Source: Thermaerobacter marianensis DSM 12885
Lineage (GTDB): Bacteria; Bacillota; Sulfobacillia; Thermaerobacterales; Thermaerobacteraceae
DNA length: 64,000 bases
Direction: 5' to 3'
Assembly: GCF_000184705.1 (NCBI RefSeq)
Contig: NC_014831.1
Span: forward strand, 372,001 to 436,000
Each line of letters starts with the position of its first letter. Position 1 is the first letter of the stretch. Under the pieces are notes generated by a model. The model was not told the origin of the DNA, did no database searches, and saw nothing but the letters and a program-made list of their open reading frames with translations. Made by a program: the position numbers and the translations under genes. Shown here piece by piece: positions 23,728 to 34,885 of the stretch.

Positions 23728-23821
23728 GGGAGCAGCTGGTGACTGGTGTCGCCCCTGGTCTTCAAAACCAGTGGGGGGCGGAAAGACCGTCCCCGGTGGG
23801 TTCGATTCCCACATGCTCCCG
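23728..23821 (+). tRNA. selC: tRNA-Sec, selenocysteine, anticodon TCA
   Basis: All special features of bacterial tRNA-Sec are present. There is a long acceptor arm (GGGAGCA with TGCTCCC, plus a G-A pair at position 8) and a six-bp D stem (GGTGAC/GTCGCC) with a four-base loop. The anticodon loop is CTTCAAA in a CTGGT/ACCAG stem. The variable arm is long (GGGGGCGG/CCGTCCCC) and the T arm is GTGGG-TTCGATT-CCCAC. The discriminator is G; the sequence then reads CA, so CCA may need enzymatic completion. It reads UGA as selenocysteine, which implies selA, selB and selD elsewhere; none is in this window. A diverged copy of its 3' half lies at 34205. Confidence 0.95.
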
Positions 23822-23832
23822 CAAGGCTTGAA

Positions 23833-23860
23833 GGGCCATACCCCTCGCCGGGTATGGCCC
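23833..23860 (+). terminator. Terminator of selC
   Basis: An 11-bp perfect stem, GGGCCATACCC (23833-23843) with GGGTATGGCCC (23850-23860) and a 6-nt loop, lies 11 bases past the tRNA. No long T run follows. Confidence 0.65.
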
Positions 23861-23867
23861 TACCTCC

Positions 23868-24047
23868 AGGTCCCCCCACCGCCGGGCCAAATCACGGCTC
23901 ATCGCCTGGTGGGAGGGCAAGCCCCTGCCCGTGGCTCCCGCCGCCCGCCGCTGGGACATGAATCAGCAGGAGGCCAAGGCGTCGCTGGAGCGGGTAAGGC
24001 GGGAAGTGGCAGAGTGGTTCCCCCACCATCCCCTGGACCCATCCTGA
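23868..24047 (+). pseudogene. Possible gene remnant just after selC
   Basis: An open stretch without a plausible start ends at TGA 24045-24047. It reads like protein: an RRAKSRLIAWWEGKPLP segment, then a charged helix containing NQQEAKASLERVRREVAEWF. It may be the 3' end of a gene cut off at the tRNA end, or a ~38-residue peptide from the GTG at 23931. I do not recognise the family. Confidence 0.3.
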
Positions 24048-24799
24048 GCCGGTCACAGCGCTGCTCCAACGCTGGGACGTTGGAACGCTGCCGCCGGTTC
24101 CGCCGCCGGCGGACTATAGGCGGGAGATTCCACCCGGCCCTTGCCTGGCAGGTGCACGGGATGCATGAGGGGGTGGGCGGTGACCGTCACCGCCACCCTA
24201 ATCCTTTCGGCTTCCGCCTTCCTACCGAATTATTGACATGCGCCATCAATTAACGCGCCGTCTTCCCCTGATCCGCGTCCTGAAGGTCTCCCTTTCCCGC
24301 TTCGGATCGGGTCCTCACCCTACCCCGCCACCGCCAGCACGCTTGTGGTGCCAGGCGGGGCGGGGTTGTCCGCCGGCTGTACAGACCTGCGCCTCGCCGT
24401 GTCCCGTTGCCACAAAGATGAACCGCCGTGAACCCGCGAGAAATCAAGAGCACGAGCAGGAAAACAACCGGAACAAGCCAATTAAGAGGGTGTCCGGCGG
24501 CTTGAACGCCGCTGCCCGAACCGACCAAGATACAACTTGGTTGGTCTTGGACAACTTGGCCACCTTAACCAATGCGGCCCACCGCTTCCCGCTCCCCAAA
24601 GGGGTTGCCCGCCGGGGCGTGCCAATGGCTCCGGCGGGGCAGGAAGGGTTTCAGAGGGGGCCGTTGGCTGTCTGGAGGGAGGTGGTGCCGGCCCCCGCCG
24701 TGCGGCAGACCCGCCAGGCAGGGAGCCAGCACTGGGAGTAGCAGGCGGGGCCTGGGCTCTTCAGCCGGGGCACACCGCCGCAGGCTGGAGGGGGTGAAG
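24048..24799. other. Stretch without a recognisable gene
   Basis: No convincing protein is seen. Small structures include an inverted repeat TCCAACG/CGTTGGA near 24067, an AT-richer patch near 24225-24250, and a palindromic segment GACCAA...TTGGTC near 24522-24545 with repeated CAACTTGG words. The last could be an operator for the winged-helix gene downstream. Confidence 0.4.
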
Positions 24800-25102
24800 G
24801 TGAGTGAGTATCTAACCAGCTCGCAGGCTGCACGCCTCCTCGGCGTCGCCCGGAGCACCTTTCACAACTGGCACATATCCGGGAAGCTGGAGGAGTACGG
24901 CGTGCACGCCATTCAGACCCTCGGCGGGCATTACCGCTACCGCCGGGAGGAGATCGAAGCGCTGCGGGACCTGCTCCTGAGCAGGGCCAGGCGCAGCGCG
25001 GCAGCCTCGCCGAACGGCCATGCCTTCGGGGAGGCGGTCGGGCACCCGGAGGAAGGGGATTACGGCGCAAAGGAGCCGGCTTCGCCCTCCGAATCCGGGT
25101 AG
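24800..25102 (+). CDS. MerR/excisionase-like winged-helix DNA-binding protein
   Basis: This 100-residue protein has an N-terminal helix-turn-helix of the MerR/BldC/excisionase type: 'LTSSQAARLLGVARSTFHNW' (about 5-24), followed by a wing 'TLGGHYRYRREEIEALR'. The C-terminal ~45 residues are Ser/Gly/Glu-rich. The GTG at 24800 has GGAGGGG 7 bases upstream; a GTG six bases earlier is also possible. Single-domain proteins of this class are either small regulators or recombination directionality factors of integrated elements. Its place just inside the selC region fits the second idea, and its place 83 bp before the S-layer gene fits the first. Confidence 0.75.
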   Translation: MSEYLTSSQAARLLGVARSTFHNWHISGKLEEYGVHAIQTLGGHYRYRREEIEALRDLLLSRARRSAAASPNGHAFGEAVGHPEEGDYGAKEPASPSESG

Positions 25103-25185
25103 GCGAATCGTCCTAGCGCATCGCATCTTCGTTCCATCCCCACACCCACAAGCCCGAAGGCTCTCGTGGGAGAGGAGGTCTGGAG

Positions 25186-28100
25186 TTGAGTTCCGTTCAT
25201 CGGCAGCACTCCCGCAAGTTCGCGGTGATCGTGACGGTCCTGGCCCTTTTGTTGGGCTTGTTCCCGGTCGCCGCGTTCGCCAGCCACGGCCAGTTCCCCG
25301 ACGTGAGCGGTGTGCTGGCCGGCGAGATCAAGGCGGCCCATGACGCGGGTCTGGTGGACGGCTACGACGACGGCACGTTCCGGCCCAACGAGAACGTGAC
25401 CCGGGCGGCCTTCGCCAAGTTCATCGTCCTGGCCGTCGAGAAGGCTACGGGCCAGTCCCTGCCGACGGGTGACGAGCCCTTCTCCGACGTGGCCCCCAAC
25501 CAGGCTCTGTACGAGTACGTGGTCAAGGCCTACAAGGCGGGTTACATCCAGGGCTACAGCGACGGCACCTTCGGGTACGACAAGCCCATCAACCGCCAGG
25601 AGGCCGCGGCCATCCTGCAGCGGGCCCTGAAGCTGGCCGACGCCCCGGAGAACTTCGCCGACGTGCCCGATGACAGCGCCTTCGCCAAGGCGATCGGCGC
25701 GGTGGCGGCCGCCGGCCTGATGAAGGGCTATGACAACGGTAACTTCGGCCCCAGCGACAAGGTGAACCGGGCCCAGGCGGCGGCGGTGGCGGTTCGTGGT
25801 TACAACCATCTCGCGCAACAGAACGTCCAGTATGAGGTTGTCTCGGTCGCTGCCGTCAGCTCCAAGGCCTTGCGCGTGACGTTCAACAAGGCTGTGGACG
25901 ACACGAGCAAGGTCAAGTTCGACGTGAAGCGGGACGGCGTAGCCGTCGACTTGACGGCGAAGTGGGCTGAGGACAAGAAGTCCGTGGACCTTGAGTCGTC
26001 GTCCAAGCTGCAGGTTGGAACCTACACGGTGACGGTCAGCGGCCTCGACTTTGCCGAGGGCAAGAACAGCGGCTCGGTCAAGGTCGAGGAAGAGACGGTC
26101 GCCAAGATTGAGATCGTTGGCGACAAGCTGATCCGGGATAAGAACACCCCCTCTGTCGCTCGCATTGGCTACAAGGTGTACAACCAGTACGGCGAGGATA
26201 TCACGAACTCGTCGGTGGCGGCGGGGATTGAGGCGAAGTCCAGCGCTGGTAGCGCGAGTATAACAAGCACCGGTGTCGTCGAGATTACCAACAACCCCAG
26301 CAATCAGGCGTGGCCGCTTGATGCCAAGGTCGTGCTCACGCTGGTCCACTCCGCTACCGGCGTTACGGCGAGTAAGACGCTGACGGTGGCCGATTCCGGT
26401 CAGCTGACCAGCTTCGCATTTGGTAACATCATCTATCCGGATGACTCGAAGCGTATCTATACTGGTCGTTCGGAGGCTGCCTGGATTGAGGTTCAGGCCA
26501 CGGACGCCAATGGTCAGCCTGCGGACGAGGCGTACCTTCGGAACGCTGTGACTCTCGTTCCGCAGTCGGGCCTTCAGGCAGACTTCGCTACGAGGGACGG
26601 TAAGCCTGTCATCAAGATCGATACGACCAGTATCGTGACGGCGGGTAAGTACACCCTTACGGCTGTTGTTCTAAGCTCGCCCGACCTCAACAAGTCCATC
26701 ACTCTGGACGTGGTGAAGGAGCCGTACCCGGCGAAGGTCGAGTTGTCCGCACCGGAAGGGCTTGTAGCGGCTCGGGACGCGGCTGGAACGGTCGTCCTTG
26801 GTCTCAAGGTCTATGACCAGTTTGGCAACGAGATGGCGGGCAAGGACGTTGCGGCCCACAGCGCGGACATTGAGGTGCGGGCTGTGGGTGCCGGATTCGC
26901 TTCCGGCGCCAACGTGGATGTCTTCGGTATCGCAACCACAGGTGCCAATATCGGCAAGGTTGTCAACACTGATGTCATTCCGGCGTTGGCTTCCGGTAAT
27001 GCGGGTACCATTACGGTGTTCGCAACGGCGAAGGAGACCGGGAACACCTCCACCGTGCAGTTCCAGGTTCGGCCCGAGCGTGAGCCGGCGGCCGTGGTCC
27101 TGCCGACTGACGCAGTAACCAACCTGCTGTACAACGCGAGCTCTGTCGTGAGCCTGAACTTCAAGGATCAGTACGAGGCGAACTACGATCCTGCCAAGGC
27201 TGATCCTGCGGGGGCCGTACAGAGCTTTGGCTACAAGGTGACTTTGAGTGGGCAGGATGTGGTCACTGTTACCGTCGGCGGGGTTACGCTGGACCTCGGT
27301 GCCGCGCCCGCTGTGTCGGAGGCTGCGAAGAACGGTACTGCAGGTACTCCCGCGACAAGCGTGCTAGTCGACCTGAAGAACATTACCCTGCAGGCGAAGT
27401 CGGCAAGCGGTAATGCGACTGTGACGGTACAGTTGCTGAAGGGTAGCAATGTGGTAAGCTCGGTGCAGTTCAACGTCTCCGTCGCGGCGCCGTCCAGCAC
27501 GCTGCAGTACAGCTTGGCTCAGATTCCGGCCCTGTACTGGGATGCGGATGGCGACCCGACTAACAATTCGGGCACTACCAATGGCGGCTCTGCTACGGCG
27601 GCGTACGCCGAGGAGATCCGGGTTGTCGCCAAGGACAGCACCGGCAAGACTTACACTGTAGCGCCGTCGACCATCGTCGTTGCGACAGTGGACGGAGCCG
27701 ACTTTGAGACCGGCAAGGACGGCAACGTGTGGAAGGTGTGGTCGACCCGCACGCAGCGTCCCACCGATAAGGTGACCGGCACGCTCACGGTGCAGGTTCA
27801 GACCACCGATGCCGGCTTGGTGACGCTGACCGGCACGGTGACGATCTCCAACGAAGATCGGTATGCCGTGAACGTGCTGGTACGTGACGCGGGGCTGACG
27901 TCGCCGAACGGAAGCGTCAGCTTGCCGGCTAATAGTAATCCGGTGAGCGAGGCAACGTATGACACTGCGGCGACCCCGCCGTCGCTTACGCCGAAACCGT
28001 ACGTGGCGGTGGAGGATCAGTTCGGCCGCTACTGGGTGCCTGGGAATCTGAAGCTGGCTCCTGCGAATGTGTCGCTAGGGGTCACGGTGACCGACGTGTC

Positions 28101-28212
28101 GTACGCGGCGACCGGTGAGGTGACTGTCAGCGCGTCGGGCGCTGGTACGTTCGACGTCGTCATCCAGGCGCCGAACGGCAAGACCGCTACGATCAAGGTG
28201 AACGTTCGGTAG
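25186..28212 (+). CDS. S-layer protein with three SLH domains
   Basis: This 1008-residue exported protein has a signal peptide (hydrophobic 'FAVIVTVLALLLGLFPVAAFA', cut near residue 32). Three S-layer homology repeats follow, about residues 36-82, 97-148 and 155-210. Each has an FxDV start and a G-Y-x-D/N-G-x-F core ('GLVDGYDDGTFRPNENVTRA', 'GYIQGYSDGTFGYDKPINRQ', 'GLMKGYDNGNFGPSDKVNRA'). SLH repeats bind pyruvylated wall polymers. The remaining ~790 residues are beta-rich Ig-like domains. The TTG start has GAGAGGAGG upstream. Codon use shifts: the SLH part is strongly G/C-ending, the Ig-like part much less so. Confidence 0.92.
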   Translation: MSSVHRQHSRKFAVIVTVLALLLGLFPVAAFASHGQFPDVSGVLAGEIKAAHDAGLVDGYDDGTFRPNENVTRAAFAKFIVLAVEKATGQSLPTGDEPFSDVAPNQALYEYVVKAYKAGYIQGYSDGTFGYDKPINRQEAAAILQRALKLADAPENFADVPDDSAFAKAIGAVAAAGLMKGYDNGNFGPSDKVNRAQAAAVAVRGYNHLAQQNVQYEVVSVAAVSSKALRVTFNKAVDDTSKVKFDVKRDGVAVDLTAKWAEDKKSVDLESSSKLQVGTYTVTVSGLDFAEGKNSGSVKVEEETVAKIEIVGDKLIRDKNTPSVARIGYKVYNQYGEDITNSSVAAGIEAKSSAGSASITSTGVVEITNNPSNQAWPLDAKVVLTLVHSATGVTASKTLTVADSGQLTSFAFGNIIYPDDSKRIYTGRSEAAWIEVQATDANGQPADEAYLRNAVTLVPQSGLQADFATRDGKPVIKIDTTSIVTAGKYTLTAVVLSSPDLNKSITLDVVKEPYPAKVELSAPEGLVAARDAAGTVVLGLKVYDQFGNEMAGKDVAAHSADIEVRAVGAGFASGANVDVFGIATTGANIGKVVNTDVIPALASGNAGTITVFATAKETGNTSTVQFQVRPEREPAAVVLPTDAVTNLLYNASSVVSLNFKDQYEANYDPAKADPAGAVQSFGYKVTLSGQDVVTVTVGGVTLDLGAAPAVSEAAKNGTAGTPATSVLVDLKNITLQAKSASGNATVTVQLLKGSNVVSSVQFNVSVAAPSSTLQYSLAQIPALYWDADGDPTNNSGTTNGGSATAAYAEEIRVVAKDSTGKTYTVAPSTIVVATVDGADFETGKDGNVWKVWSTRTQRPTDKVTGTLTVQVQTTDAGLVTLTGTVTISNEDRYAVNVLVRDAGLTSPNGSVSLPANSNPVSEATYDTAATPPSLTPKPYVAVEDQFGRYWVPGNLKLAPANVSLGVTVTDVSYAATGEVTVSASGAGTFDVVIQAPNGKTATIKVNVR

Positions 28213-28250
28213 TCTGTGATCGGTTGGCAGTCCTCGGGAGTGGTCAAGGG

Positions 28251-28285
28251 GAGGCGGGAGTTTGAGCTCGCCTCCTCTTCTTTTC
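28251..28285 (+). terminator. Terminator of the S-layer gene
   Basis: GAGGC-GG-GAG pairs with CTC-GCCTC around a short loop and is followed by CTCTTCTTTTCT, a T-rich tract. Confidence 0.6.
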
Positions 28286-28706
28286 TGGGCTCTGCACGGG
28301 TGGGTGAGATGCACTGTGGAGGGTAGCGCTGTAGAACCGCCAACAAGGCAAGGGGATTGGCCATGACACAGCGTAGGCGAGCTGCCCCAGCGTTACTTGT
28401 AAATCAGCTAAAACACCACCAGCAGCTAGGAGGGGGGAGATTGCGTGGTAAGCCGCTGTGGGCGACGACGACTACGGCAGCCAGACCAGCCAAAGGAGTA
28501 GAATAAGCTGGTGGGGCGCGCGCGGGGCACCGGGTTCTGCGTCTCCGGATGGTCCGGAGCGTTGAGTACCCCCGCAATCGCCGGATCACAGGTGGGGGCC
28601 GGGCACAACCCTCTTTCGCTGTGACCGGAAGTCTGTGTCGGTCGCCTCAGTGATTCCAGAAACCGCATTGGGATGCGGCACCCCGTTGGTGGCGCCTGCG
28701 CGAAGC
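28286..28706. other. Stretch between S-layer gene and IS21 element
   Basis: I see no firm gene. A 47-codon frame at 28363-28506 (ATG, AAGGGG 10 bases upstream, MTQRRRAAPALLVNQLKHHQ start) is possible but unsupported. The last four bases, AAGC (28703-28706), form the target duplication of the IS21 element. Confidence 0.4.
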
Positions 28707-28806
28707 TGTCACGGCCGGTGCAAAAATGACCCAGTAGGGTCGGATGAATTTTGACCCACCCCGCCGAACCGAGTCCCATTCCCTTCCCAGGAATGGAGGC
28801 CGGTTC

Positions 28807-30042
28807 ATGCTGAAAGGTGGGTCGTTGATGGATATTCTGCGGCTGAAGGCTGAAGGCCTGTCCGTTCGGGAAATTGCCCGCCGTACGGGGTTGTCCCGGA
28901 ATACGGTGCGGAAGTACCTGCGCCAACCCGAGCCACCCCGGTACAAGCCACGGCCGCCCAAGGCGTCGAAGTTGGATCCGTTCAAGCCGTACCTCGAGCA
29001 GCGTATGGCCCAAGGGGTCTTCAATGCCAATCGTCTCCTGCAGGAGCTCCGGGCCCAGGGCTATACCGGCGGAAAGACGATTCTCAAGGAGTTCCTTCGG
29101 CCCCATCGCCCGCCCCGGGTCCCACGCGCCGTGGTGCGCTTCGAGCTCCCGCCGGGGACCCAGGCGCAGGTTGACTGGGGGGAGTTCGCCTACACCGACC
29201 TCCAGGGACGACGGCGGAAGGTTTACGGGTTTGTCATGGTCCTCAGTTACTCGCGGGCGATGTACGTGGAGTTCGTGGAACAGCAGGACCTGAGCACCCT
29301 CTTACGATGTCACCTCCACGCCTTCGCGGCCTTGGGGGGTGTCCCGAAGGAGATCCTCTACGACAACATGAAGACCGTCGTCCTTCGCCGCCATGGTGCG
29401 GAGGTGGATTACCACCCAAGGATGCTTGACTTTGCGTTGCTTGCCGGGTTTGCCCCTCGGGTGTGCCGGCCGTATCGGGCCCAGACCAAGGGCCGGGTGG
29501 AGCGAGCCATCGGCTATCTCAAGCAGCACTTCTGGCCGGCCGTCCAGTTCACCGACCTGGCCGATCTCAACCGGCAGGTGCGGGCGTGGGTGGCCGAGGT
29601 CGCGAATCGCCGCATCCACGGGACCACCGGGCAGCGCCCCGCCGATCGACTGGGGGAAGAGCAGGCCCATCTGACGCCCCTTCGGCCCTTGGCGGCTTTC
29701 ACGTCGCTCCTGCACAAAGAACGCCGGGTGAGTCGGGATGGCTACGTGCAGTACGCGGGCAGCCGGTATGGGGTCCCCTGGCGTTATAGCGGCCGATACG
29801 TCACGGTGTTCGCGACCGAAACGGAGGTCGAGATCCGCGACGGGGACCGGGTGATTGCCCGGCACCCTCGGGCCTTGCTGCCCGGACTGACGATCTCCCT
29901 TCCGGAGCAGTACCACGGCCTTGCTTTGGGTGGGACCCAACGTCCCGAGCCGCCCCAAGGCCAGCAGGTCGTCGGCCCGGCGGTGGAGCGCCGCTCGCTC
30001 CAGGTCTACGAAGACCTTCTTCGGGCAGGTGAACGCCGGTGA
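28807..30042 (+). CDS. istA: IS21 transposase IstA
   Basis: This 411-residue DDE transposase has an N-terminal helix-turn-helix ('LSVREIARRTGLSRNTVRKYL', about 18-38). The rve-type catalytic core has D123 ('QVDWGEF'), D186 ('LYDNMK') and E232 ('KGRVERAIGYLK'). The C-terminal beta domain is complete. The ATG at 28807 has GGAGG 7 bases upstream; an in-frame ATG at 28744 lies in the element's end repeats. Its TGA overlaps the istB GTG (GTGA), the normal IS21 translational coupling. Confidence 0.95.
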   Translation: MLKGGSLMDILRLKAEGLSVREIARRTGLSRNTVRKYLRQPEPPRYKPRPPKASKLDPFKPYLEQRMAQGVFNANRLLQELRAQGYTGGKTILKEFLRPHRPPRVPRAVVRFELPPGTQAQVDWGEFAYTDLQGRRRKVYGFVMVLSYSRAMYVEFVEQQDLSTLLRCHLHAFAALGGVPKEILYDNMKTVVLRRHGAEVDYHPRMLDFALLAGFAPRVCRPYRAQTKGRVERAIGYLKQHFWPAVQFTDLADLNRQVRAWVAEVANRRIHGTTGQRPADRLGEEQAHLTPLRPLAAFTSLLHKERRVSRDGYVQYAGSRYGVPWRYSGRYVTVFATETEVEIRDGDRVIARHPRALLPGLTISLPEQYHGLALGGTQRPEPPQGQQVVGPAVERRSLQVYEDLLRAGERR

Positions 30043-30389
30043 TCACGGTGGACAAGGCCCGCCAGCACCTGCTGGCCCTGGGGCTGAAGGATGCGGCGGA
30101 GGTCCTGGAAGCGCGTCTGGAACGCGCTGCGAAGCAGGACGTAACCTATGCTGACTTCCTTGTGGATCTGCTGGAAACCGAACTCGCGGTCCGGCGCCGG
30201 CGTTACCTGGACACACGGACCAAGCTGGCGCGGCTCCCGTTCCGGAAAACGCTGGAGGACTTCGACTTCGAGGCCCAACCCTCCATCGACCCCCGCCAGA
30301 TTCGGGAGCTGGCCACGCTCCGCTTTTTGGGCAACGCCGAGAATGTGATCTTTCTGGGACCACCGGGCGTCGGCAAGATGGTCTGTCAC

Positions 30390-30719
30390 TTATGATCAAG
30401 ACAGGGACGGGCCTGTGCGGCCGCGCTCCCGGCCCTGCTGCACGAACGGTCTCAAGCTCTGAAGTGAGTTTGGGGGCTACGAAACCCTGGGCAAGATGTG
30501 AGCTAGGCCGTTCGAGCAGCGGGTCGAACGTCGAACAGACAGGTGGGCCGAGAGCCTTGATGGTGATGTGGCGCCGACGGGGTCGGGAGCCGAGGCGGCC
30601 GTCTCGGGCAGCAAGCCCCACACAAACGACCAATGGGACCGGCCGTGGCCGTGAGCCCTCATCGGTGACCTGGGCGCGGCCCGGGGCGGTCTCCTCGGGT
30701 CCTGACCGGGAGGGAGAGG
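30390..30719 (+). ncRNA. Candidate bridge (guide) RNA of the IS110 element
   Basis: This leader has no convincing protein frame. IS110-group elements express a structured RNA from this position that pairs with donor and target DNA (established knowledge). At 30490-30498 it contains GGCAAGATG, identical to nine bases of the left insertion junction (30372-30380). That is the behaviour expected of a left target guide, which has the same sense as the target top strand. I did not fold it, and exact ends are unknown. Confidence 0.45.
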
Positions 30720-32006
30720 ACGGACAATGCTCCCCGTACCTATGTAGGCATCGATGTCGGGCGGCGGCGTCACCGGGCTGCGATCTTGCCCATCGGGCGA
30801 GCCATGCACGGGTGGGAGCACGCCCCGGTGCTCGCCTTTACGGCGGACACCGACGGTTTCCGCGAGTTCTTCGATGCTCTCCACGCAGCCGGCGCCACGC
30901 CTGCCAACACCGTGTGCGCACTGGAACCGACCGGCGGCTACTCCTCACAGCCCATCTTCCAGGCCCTCAAGCACCACGGTTTCGAGGTCCTCTGGGTCAA
31001 GAACCAGGCCGTGCATGACCTGCGGGAAACGCTGTACGGTCGCCGATCGAAGACCGACGCGGAAGACGCACGGCTCATTGCCCGGCTGCTGTATCTACGC
31101 GAGGCGATCGGCCAGGAGTACGCGTTCCAGGTGGCCCACACGGGGAGTGCACCCTACCGAAACCTTCGTCTCCTCGTGGAGCTGCGTTGGAAACAGGTGC
31201 AAGCGCACCGGCGGGCATCGAACCAACTGATGCAGGTGCTGGACGTGCTGTTTCCCGAGATGCGGCAGATCTTCCGGAAGGGAACCACACGCCCGACGCC
31301 GCTCCATCTCCTCCGCCGTTTCTCGACGGTGCAGGCCATCGCCGCCGCGTCCGAGCAGGATCTACGCCACGTCCTGGTCAACGAGGCCCGCAGCCTACGC
31401 CATCAAACCGCCGTATCGGAACTCCGCCGGCTGGCCCAGACCAGCGTCGGAGCCCGTGAAGGCCGGGACGTGTTGGAGCTGGCCCAGGGGTGGCTGATCC
31501 AGCAGCTCCACGACTTGCAGGATTCCCTGGTGGACCTCGAGGCCCGGATTAAAGCCGCAGTAGAGGAATTCCCCGAAACCTCGATCCTACGTACTTTCCC
31601 CTCCATGTCGGCTCGTCGGATTGCCACGTTGCTAGCCGGAATGGGGGCTCCGATTGACGCGTTTCCCAACGACCGGGCCTTGCGGAAGCAGTGGGGATGG
31701 TACGTGGAGATCGAGCAGTCGGGTGCACGCACGCGCTCCCGCCTCGGCCGGGGCGGGTACCGCGGTACGCGCCGAGAACTCTACCTGATGGCGATGCAGC
31801 TCATCAAGGAGCAAACCCAGGACAACCCGTTCCGGCACTATTACCGGCGCCTTCTGCGGGGTAACCCCACGCCCAAGGTACCGAAGGTGGCCCTCGGCCA
31901 CGTGGCCTCCAAGCTCATCACCGTGATGTACGTGTGTATGCGACGCCGCGAACCCTATGACCCGGCCAAGCTCTGGAGACACATGGGGGTGAAGACAACG
32001 GCTTAG
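30720..32006 (+). CDS. IS110-family transposase (DEDD + Ser recombinase)
   Basis: This ~428-residue transposase has an N-terminal RuvC-like DEDD domain: 'TYVGIDVGRRRHRAAIL' (first Asp), 'CALEPTGGY' (Glu), and 'SKTDAEDARLIARLL' (last two Asp). The C-terminal Tnp domain ('LRTFPSMSARRIATLLAGMG' ... 'QWGWYVEIEQSG') carries the serine region. No ATG, GTG or TTG allows the first Asp to be included: the first standard start is TTG at 30786, after 'GIDVG'. The natural start appears to be an ACG at 30720, six bases after a GGGAGG site; either it is a rare start or a mutated ATG. Otherwise the frame is intact. Confidence 0.85.
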   Translation, partial: TDNAPRTYVGIDVGRRRHRAAILPIGRAMHGWEHAPVLAFTADTDGFREFFDALHAAGATPANTVCALEPTGGYSSQPIFQALKHHGFEVLWVKNQAVHDLRETLYGRRSKTDAEDARLIARLLYLREAIGQEYAFQVAHTGSAPYRNLRLLVELRWKQVQAHRRASNQLMQVLDVLFPEMRQIFRKGTTRPTPLHLLRRFSTVQAIAAASEQDLRHVLVNEARSLRHQTAVSELRRLAQTSVGAREGRDVLELAQGWLIQQLHDLQDSLVDLEARIKAAVEEFPETSILRTFPSMSARRIATLLAGMGAPIDAFPNDRALRKQWGWYVEIEQSGARTRSRLGRGGYRGTRRELYLMAMQLIKEQTQDNPFRHYYRRLLRGNPTPKVPKVALGHVASKLITVMYVCMRRREPYDPAKLWRHMGVKTTA

Positions 32007-32632
32007 GTTGCCTAATGAGAGGAATCCCCAGCCCACGCCCTCCAGTGGGGGTGCTGATGCTCCTTTTGTCCCCGTCCGCTCCAAGGATTCCAGGCGGAAG
32101 CCTATTGACATGGTAACCCATTTGGCCGTGTCGCTCGGTTTAGCCGCCATCGACCGGGGATATGGCGTCTACTTCACGCCCATGCACCGCCTCATTGAGG
32201 ATCTACGCAACGCCTACGAGGAGCGCCGGCTCGAACGACGGATGCGGATCTACCTGGCGCCCAAGCTCCTGATCATCGACGAACTGGGCTATCTGCCCCT
32301 CGACAAGGTGGGCGCCACGGTGTTCTTCCAACTCGTGGCGGCCCGATATGAGCGCGGCAGCATCGTCCTCACATCGAACCAGACCTTCGCCGACTGGGGG
32401 GAGGTGTTCGGTGACCCGGTCATCGCCACGGCCATCCTCGACCGGTTGCTGCATCACAGTCACGTGATCAACATCCGGGGCGAGAGCTACCGACTCCGGG
32501 AGAAGCGCCGTTCGGGTGTCCTTCGCAGTGCGGTCGAACTACAGCAGGATGAGTGAACCGGATTGCCAAGCTCCGGTGGGTCACTTTTCAACCGGCCGAA
32601 GTGGGTCAAAATTCAACCGGCCTTGACAAAGC

Positions 32633-34204
32633 CTCTTGGACCCCCGATCACCTGATGCCCGGCGTGGGGCGGGCCGGAATGGGGTCATGGGCATGGTCCT
32701 TTGTAGTAGTCGAGCACACGGCCAGTGGGCGGATTCGAGCGGGTGAAGCCGGTCCTGCCAGGCATGGATTACAACGACGGAGCACGCTGTGGGTTCGCAA
32801 CAACGGATCACGTGCCAGGTGCTGGCCCGGTCGCTACAGGCTAGGTTCTCGTCGGTTGGCCCTATCCTAGGTCCGCGGCAGTTGGTCACATCCTAAATGC
32901 CCGGCGTGGGAAGGAGGCTCAAGAGGCGAGCTCCCGCCGTCGTGCCTTTCGGTATCACCTTACGCCGCCTTTTACCCCCGCCTCAAGTTCCGCAGAGGCC
33001 TCTAGGAGGGCGCACAGGCGCCATTTGATCCGGGAGATAACCGGAACTTTTGCCGAGTCCCAAACGCCCGTTGTAGGCCTTCTCAGCGGCCTCCTTCCCC
33101 ACGACCCGGATAAAGCGGCTGTGGGTTAGGCTACCCCAGCGGCAGGGCGAATGCTGGCAACGACGGTCAGGTCCCAGCGGGGGGAGGGGCTGTGCGTGCT
33201 CGTTCCCTATCCCTTCTTGGAGGGAGGGCGCGGAGCCCGCAGGAGTCCCGGAGAACCACACCCGCTGTGGCATGTAGGGCCAAGGGGAACATAGGCCCGC
33301 CGGCCTACGTCGAAGAAGCCCCGGGGATTCGGCTGACCATCGACCATGACGACTTGACGGATCCATTGCCCGTTGTGCGACGTAGTGGTAAGGATGCATC
33401 GGCGCGAACCCCGACCTACCCCTAATCGTGTACGTCACGAACCCCCTGATGCTCGCCATTGCCCACATGCTACAGAGCGGAACGCCGGTGGCGTGATCCC
33501 ACCTGCTCCCTGACCCCCTCACTGCCTCAGTGGCGAAGAGCGGGTCTCATCGTCCAGGCGGGGAGCCAACGAGGTCACCGGGCGCTGTGTTCACCCTTCC
33601 AGGGGTGCGGCGACCTTTCCCCACTCCCGCTGTGGTGCCCTGCTTGGCGAAACCCAACCCGCGCCGACCCACAGGCTTGCGCCATCGGACCGAAGCCCGC
33701 TCGCTGGAGGCCTCTATTTTGGCCTCCAAACAGCCTTTCGGCCATGGCGAGACTTCGCGATGCATGGTCCTTCATCGAGGCCTTGGAGGGCAAATTTGAT
33801 GCCTCCCCTCGGGATGGGAACTGGTGACCAGGCCGCGTCGTTCGGGACCGCCCCTCCGCCGTCGTCCAGGCCTGCCTTGGAAAGGCTCCAGCCTGGACAG
33901 GCCCGCGCCATCCCACCGGGGTGGTGGCCGGAACCAGGCGACCCGCCACAGGCCGGACCCGGGCCGACGGGGGCACGCGGTGCGGTATGGCACGCCGGGT
34001 GCCTACGAACCCTTGTCCTGCATGGCCTCGTGGGCCCTCAACCTGCAAATCAACTTGCAAATCTCCTGCAAATCTGAGGGCCGGAAACAGGGGGAAACAC
34101 AGCGACTGGTAATGACGCCCAATAACCAACGAAGCCTTGTCTCACAAGGGTTTGTTGGCATTCGGTGAGAACGGCGGAAAACGCCCGGAAAGGGCTTTCT
34201 CGAA
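32633..34204. other. 1.57-kb stretch without recognisable genes
   Basis: Both strands lack a convincing gene. Open frames are short, compositionally mixed and unlike known families. A short stretch ending at the TGA 33495-33497 (VYVTNPLMLAIAHMLQSG) looks coding-like and may be the end of a decayed gene. A 7-bp hairpin GGAGGCC/GGCCTCC lies at 33707-33728. Overall it looks like eroded island DNA. Confidence 0.45.
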
Positions 34205-34268
34205 CTTCAAAACCAGTGGGGGATGGCGATACCGTCCCCGGTGGGTTCGGTTCTTACATGCTCCCGCA
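34205..34268 (+). pseudogene. Displaced 3' half of a tRNA-Sec gene
   Basis: From CTTCAAAACCAGTGGGGG (34205-34222, identical to 23760-23777) the sequence follows selC to its 3' end. It covers the anticodon 3' side, the long variable arm, the T arm and ...TGCTCCCGCA. The 5' half is absent. Differences cluster but keep pairing: the variable stem is GGGGATGG/CCGTCCCC and the T stem GTGGG/CTTAC. This suggests a copy from a different tRNA-Sec allele, as left when an element integrates into a tRNA gene and brings its own 3' half. Confidence 0.85.
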
Positions 34269-34280
34269 AAAAGGTATAGG

Positions 34281-34310
34281 GGCTACACCCTGAGCGGGTG
34301 TGGCCGTTTT
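34281..34310 (+). terminator. Terminator following the tRNA-Sec fragment
   Basis: GGCTACACCC and GGGTGTGGCC form a 10-bp stem (one G-T pair) with a 5-nt loop, then GTTTT. It corresponds in position to the selC terminator, so the tRNA 3' end and its terminator were carried together. Confidence 0.75.
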
Positions 34311-34460
34311 ACCTCGTCCTGGCATCGCCCCCTGCGTCACGCCAATTGCAACCGCGGACCAGCGCCGGTCCGGAGGGGGTCCGGGCACCCTGCCGAAGAT
34401 TCACCGGAAAGATCGCCCACCTGCCGGTACGGCGGGGGAACGGGGAGGGACGATGGTTAC

Positions 34461-34688
34461 CTCAAGCCCGGAGAACGCTACGTCGTGGACACGGGCCACG
34501 TGGTGGCGTTCAGTGACGGCATGGGCTTTCAGGTGAGGAGGGCGGGCACGGGCTGGTTCAGCTCGATCGCCAGTGGTGAGGGCCTCGCCTGCGAGTTCAC
34601 AGGGCCCGGCACCGTGTACATCCAAACCCGGTCCGAGGCGTCCTTCCTGGGCTGGTTGATCCCGAAGCTGCCGGCCAAACGCGACTGA
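34461..34688 (+). pseudogene. C-terminal remnant of an AIM24-family protein
   Basis: About 75 codons match the end of AIM24/TIGR00266 proteins: 'LKPGERYVVDTGHVVAFSDG', 'SGEGLACEFTGPGTVYIQTR', ending 'LIPKLPAKRD'. Full-length members have about 220-260 residues. The upstream frame runs into the tRNA fragment region and shows no AIM24 sequence, so the first two thirds are missing. This marks DNA disrupted at the right edge of the island. Confidence 0.75.
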
Positions 34689-34720: not shown

Positions 34721-34885
34721 CTAGGAGTCGAGGAACCGCCGCACCTCTGCCGCGTAGCGCTCGGGCTCCTCGATGTCGGGGAAGTGGGCGCTGCGCTCGA
34801 AGACCACCAACCGGCTGCGGGACAGCTTGGTGCTGATGTCCCGACAGACGTCGACCCCGGCGTTGCGGTCATGCAGCCCCACCAT
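34721..34885 (-). pseudogene. C-terminal remnant of an alpha/beta hydrolase
   Basis: The last ~54 codons resemble alpha/beta hydrolases near the catalytic His: 'SRLVVFERSAHFPDIEEPER' then 'YAAEVRRFLDS' and stop. The catalytic His would be the one in 'SAHFP'. The N-terminal domain with the nucleophile is missing; the frame begins abruptly next to the DUF1002 gene. It is a decayed fragment. Confidence 0.7.

Follow-up and report, generated by a model that had tools for sequence, protein, structure and literature searches.

Genomic islands that insert into tRNA genes through an attachment site centred on the anticodon represent an established mechanism (Islander, PMC4383910), and islands in selC, the gene for tRNA-Sec, are well known in Escherichia coli (review PMC7545054). 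In the part of the literature that we searched, we found no description of selC islands in Thermaerobacter or its class. Here we analyse a window of 64,000 nucleotides from the deep-sea thermophile Thermaerobacter marianensis (G000:C1:372001-436000; the genome is one contig of 2,844,696 bp, the size published for strain 7p75, PMC3035304), which holds a further case of this known kind of island. Like the islands found by Islander, it combines a regenerated tRNA gene with a displaced 3' fragment in the same orientation and a crossover in the anticodon loop; unlike them, it contains no integrase, so that the integrase filter of Islander would reject it, and one of its flanks is eroded. With the E. 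coli selC islands it has in common the target gene and a large cargo region, the two features on which we base the likeness, while hosts and cargo differ. The locus provides evidence of integration at selC in a genus that branches deeply in the Bacillota; sister species supply an intact element as well as undisturbed sites.

An initial annotation, made from the letters of the window, had pointed out an intact tRNA-Sec gene followed about 10.4 kb downstream by its 3' half in the same orientation, and this arrangement is confirmed (Table 1). The displaced half is the only other match to selC across the whole genome, and its E-value of 5e-16 rules out a chance repeat. Also as first described, identity between the two halves begins abruptly in the anticodon loop with 18 identical bases (CTTCAAAACCAGTGGGGG), the bases just before being GGT in one and GAA in the other.

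Table 1. Coordinates of the selC island and its right flank, in positions of the window.
Feature	Position	Strand	Basis or remark
Intact selC (tRNA-Sec, anticodon TCA)	23728..23822	+	ARAGORN; sole tRNA-Sec called in the window
Attachment core CTTCAAAACCAGTGGGGG, left junction	23760..23777	+	18 nt identical to 34205-34222
Terminator-like hairpin 3' of selC	23833..23860	+	Stem common to G001 with paired changes, absent from G002 and G003
Left remnant	23861..24747		Lacks arm repeats and integrase; unmatched in the genus
BldC-like HTH gene	24791..25102	+	HTH_17 (Pfam); precedes the main S-layer gene in all four species
Main S-layer protein, 1008 aa, three SLH domains	25186..28212	+	SLH match; G001, G002 and G003 have the orthologue in their S-layer clusters
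IS21 (istA 28744-30042, istB split) interrupted by IS110 (transposase 30786-32006)	28707..32628	+	Pfam, NCBIfam, inverted ends
Right remnant, no recognisable genes	32629..34040		No match in congeners
Three TGCAAATC direct repeats, candidate integrase arm-binding sites	34044..34074	+	Only copies in the window
Displaced selC 3' half, 65 nt	34205..34269	+	88% identical to selC, spacing 10,445 bp
Second terminator-like hairpin	34281..34309	+	Sequence; no counterpart in relatives
AIM24-family gene, C-terminal end, truncated by deletion	34456..34688	+	AIM24 positions 150-205 of 205; full gene in G001
Last 165 bp of a gene whole in G001 (L050:3140-4063)	34721..34885	-	Alignment and ORF list

Regarding the differences between the two halves, the C-to-T changes in the displaced copy pair as G-U, in agreement with the remark that base pairing is kept. 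The accompanying view that the second copy is another allele and not a product of decay holds for one arm only: the variable arm of the displaced half (ATGGCGATACC) is the allele of the working selC of the congener G003, but its T arm has TTCGGTTCTTAC in place of TTCGATTCCCAC, a change seen in 0 of 3 congeners. Since it also affects a conserved A of the T loop, presumably A58 in standard numbering, the T-arm differences look like decay. The variable arm of the intact selC (GCGGAAAGACC) equals that of both copies in the congener G001 and differs from those of the congener G002, of G003 and of the displaced half. This pattern fits the allele exchange expected upon integration, by which the active selC would be part host and part element. 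From these alignments, the element is the most likely source of the 3' part of selC, starting at 23760, and the displaced half is best explained as the host's original allele, now decaying. The hairpin behind selC was probably brought in by the element, and the one behind the displaced half may be the host's or come from a lost second element. The selenocysteine factor SelB was found in all four Thermaerobacter genomes.

The proposal that selC serves as attachment site for a tyrosine recombinase, and the suggestion to look for a similar element with its own integrase, were borne out in the congener G001, where an identical selC 3' half lies 12.56 kb downstream of selC and closes an element of 12.6 kb. 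A tyrosine integrase with Arm-DNA-bind_4 and catalytic domains directly adjoins selC, and the element also encodes a Prim-Pol/D5 primase and, at the far end, a short integrase-SAM fragment. It resembles the window in its core, terminator type and arm repeats at equal distances, and differs in being intact, with integrase and primase, and in carrying no S-layer gene. Its 948-aa protein (L050:7123-9969) has no match in Pfam or PHROGs. In the other congeners, G002 and G003, selC is single-copy. When the outer flanks of the G001 element are joined, they align with the G002 selC locus across the junction over 1,654 columns at 93.2%, so that the G001 case is a clean site-specific insertion in selC. 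Recombination at the selC attB is predicted to take place within a putative stretch, CTTCAAAACC. The undisturbed-site comparison is thus exact for the G001 element; in the window it succeeded only in part, its right flank having suffered deletions. Because 34270-34455 has no match in relatives and the AIM24 gene behind it is truncated, the right junction of the window cannot be followed base by base. The gene beyond, whole in G001, was read by eye as coding for an alpha/beta hydrolase.

The final 149 bp before the displaced half of the window are collinear with the right end of the G001 element. In both, TGCAAATC stands at -149 and -138 from the core, 11 bp apart, and in the window a further copy lies at -161; the three copies compare with 0.4 expected in the window. 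G001 carries a TGCAAATC pair at its left end as well, whereas in the window island such repeats are found at the right end and not at the left. From their placement, they are probably integrase arm-binding sites. We take short direct repeats 11 bp apart to resemble the arm sites of Tn916. The elements thus recall the Tn916 type in the Arm-DNA-bind_4 domain of the G001 integrase and in the short, 11-bp-spaced direct repeats inside each end, and depart from it in that the G001 element has a fixed tRNA target and shows no conjugation genes among its scanned ORFs. No relaxase or conjugation genes were present among the subset of ORFs scanned in the window and the G001 element. As no element gene is left inside the window island, it is assigned to the G001 family by about 150 bp at one end, by its core and by its terminator. 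GC content is 62-67% inside the island (52% at the arm end) and 72.5% outside.

A search with seven query proteins in six frames detected no integrase-like ORF between the two selC copies, as the initial annotation had reported. With left arm sites and integrase lost, the island is a fixed remnant and not a complete island, and would no longer be able to move by itself. The search that had been suggested for an integrase elsewhere in the genome yielded a sole relative, at 14.9-16.0 kb. With 37% identity and a place between tRNA-Arg and tRNA-Ala, it is unlikely to act on selC and was discarded as a helper. This tyrosine integrase (L110, G000:C1:14944-16047) marks a possible second integration site. 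The full-length relatives that integrase scans retrieved from genome and viral collections were no more than about 42% identical, and none of the five closest relatives checked had a selC half.

The S-layer gene does lie inside the island, as claimed, with its HTH neighbour directly upstream. That neighbour had been suggested to be an excisionase. Its best NCBIfam model is HTH_BldC, with a score under the cut-off, and it stays below the cut-off of the excise model too (27.9 against 28.8 bits). Synteny rules the suggestion out: each of the three congeners has one orthologue, directly upstream of its S-layer gene and far from selC. The HTH/S-layer pair occurs once per genome and belongs to the S-layer cluster in G001, G002 and G003 (with a different position within it in G003 than in G001 and G002), whereas the T. 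marianensis cluster (765-785 kb) lacks the pair, which sits in the selC island. Hence, the pair (about 24748 to 28212) has been relocated from the S-layer cluster. The presence of this conserved S-layer pair in an island that is itself dead opens the route of S-layer relocation to testing.

Taken as a whole, we consider it very likely that an integration into selC with regeneration of the gene on the left was followed by loss of arm sites and integrase, and that the S-layer pair was relocated into the island. An element with an arm-binding tyrosine integrase would have inserted into selC of a T. marianensis ancestor, its attP recombining with the core of the anticodon loop. At the left junction, the element's own selC 3' half and terminator would have made the tRNA gene whole again, and the host's original 3' half would have been pushed to the right junction, where it would then decay. 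Left arm sites and integrase would have been lost later, the HTH/S-layer pair would have moved in from the separate cluster, and an IS21 carrying an IS110, which now follows the pair, would have come to lie beside it. This is the order that we infer; the pair may also have entered later by another route.

One could argue that there was no integration at all and that the second copy is a duplicated, decayed tRNA fragment left by ordinary rearrangement, given that no integrase survives in the window island. We give this hardly any credence: the copy starts sharply in the anticodon loop, its end is common to an intact element, the arm repeats lie at a fixed distance and the congener sites are single-copy, and the comparison of G001 with G002 contradicts it. 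A tandem accretion has a minor yet real chance of being correct. By this account the half at 34205 is the junction of two elements, A and B, the terminator at 34281-34309 is the left end of B, and the rest of B was deleted together with the true right junction and the start of the AIM24 gene. The stem of that hairpin (GGCTACACCC) resembles the element-type GGCTATACCC of G001 and has no such counterpart in G002 or G003, the AIM24 gene is cut just past it, and several genomes of the class (G112 and G133, for example) have more than one displaced half. However, 34310-34455 has no further homology to the left end of the G001 element, and the terminator likeness is short and could belong to the host's own selC.

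An exchange of the cell coat, with the HTH/S-layer pair imported by the element as cargo from a different strain and the cluster's native copy lost afterwards, appears slightly less probable still. It would explain why the pair lies inside an att-bounded island and is missing from the native cluster; yet the intact G001 element has no S-layer gene, and the HTH gene diverges from those of the congeners (78-81%) as expected of a native gene. Nor does low GC prove a foreign S-layer gene, the congeners' S-layer genes being equal in GC. As a general rule, that selC-targeting Thermaerobacter elements carry the main S-layer gene and its HTH neighbour as cargo is improbable; if true, the cell coat would be exchangeable between strains by site-specific integration.

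Beyond the genus, we surveyed 154 genomes of the class with a pattern for the selC 3' half, which was present in 94. Displaced copies without the tRNA 5' half occur, besides the window's, in G001 and in 13 more genomes, namely twelve of family f8 (which we take to be probably Sulfobacillaceae) and G086. Counting the window's, 21 displaced ends were compared, some of them near-copies and therefore not all independent. In 19 of these, a run of at least 8 nt recurs with period 11 at 136-176 bp ahead of the core; random 230-bp stretches had such a run in 1-5% of cases. These repeats comprise five different sequences. Judged from these patterns, elements have integrated into selC repeatedly within the class. 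In six of these genomes an integrase adjoins the displaced copy, and in the tree these integrases form a clade separate from that of G001, so that the use of selC as a target apparently arose two or more times. A single origin of all selC integrases was rejected, with two changes in the best tree and 0 bootstrap trees uniting them, although the strongly supported branches by themselves are compatible with one. Throughout the class the same target and arm-repeat geometry recur, apparently employed by two integrase lineages.

Several minor observations accompany these loci. The IS110 of the window lies within istB of the IS21, just past the Walker A codons (28707-32628); a similar nested IS adjoins the S-layer gene of G002 in the opposite orientation (L056, L144, L146), and a second IS110 copy in T. 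marianensis (2,269,602) is flanked by an istB tail on just one side. Some f8 genomes have several displaced halves, and in this family CGTCACCA repeats occur in a conserved end of about 140 bp (f8 loci: L109, L111, L113, L114, L116-L123, L125, L128, L129, L131, L133). In G037, about 105 kb separate selC from the displaced half (L108/L109, G037:C1:1103233-1208206), beside which lies an integrase. Finally, the 3.1-kb region between selC and displaced half in G125 encodes a toxin-antitoxin-like pair of the RHH/PIN kind, together with a fragment of an AAA ATPase (L113:1944-2635).
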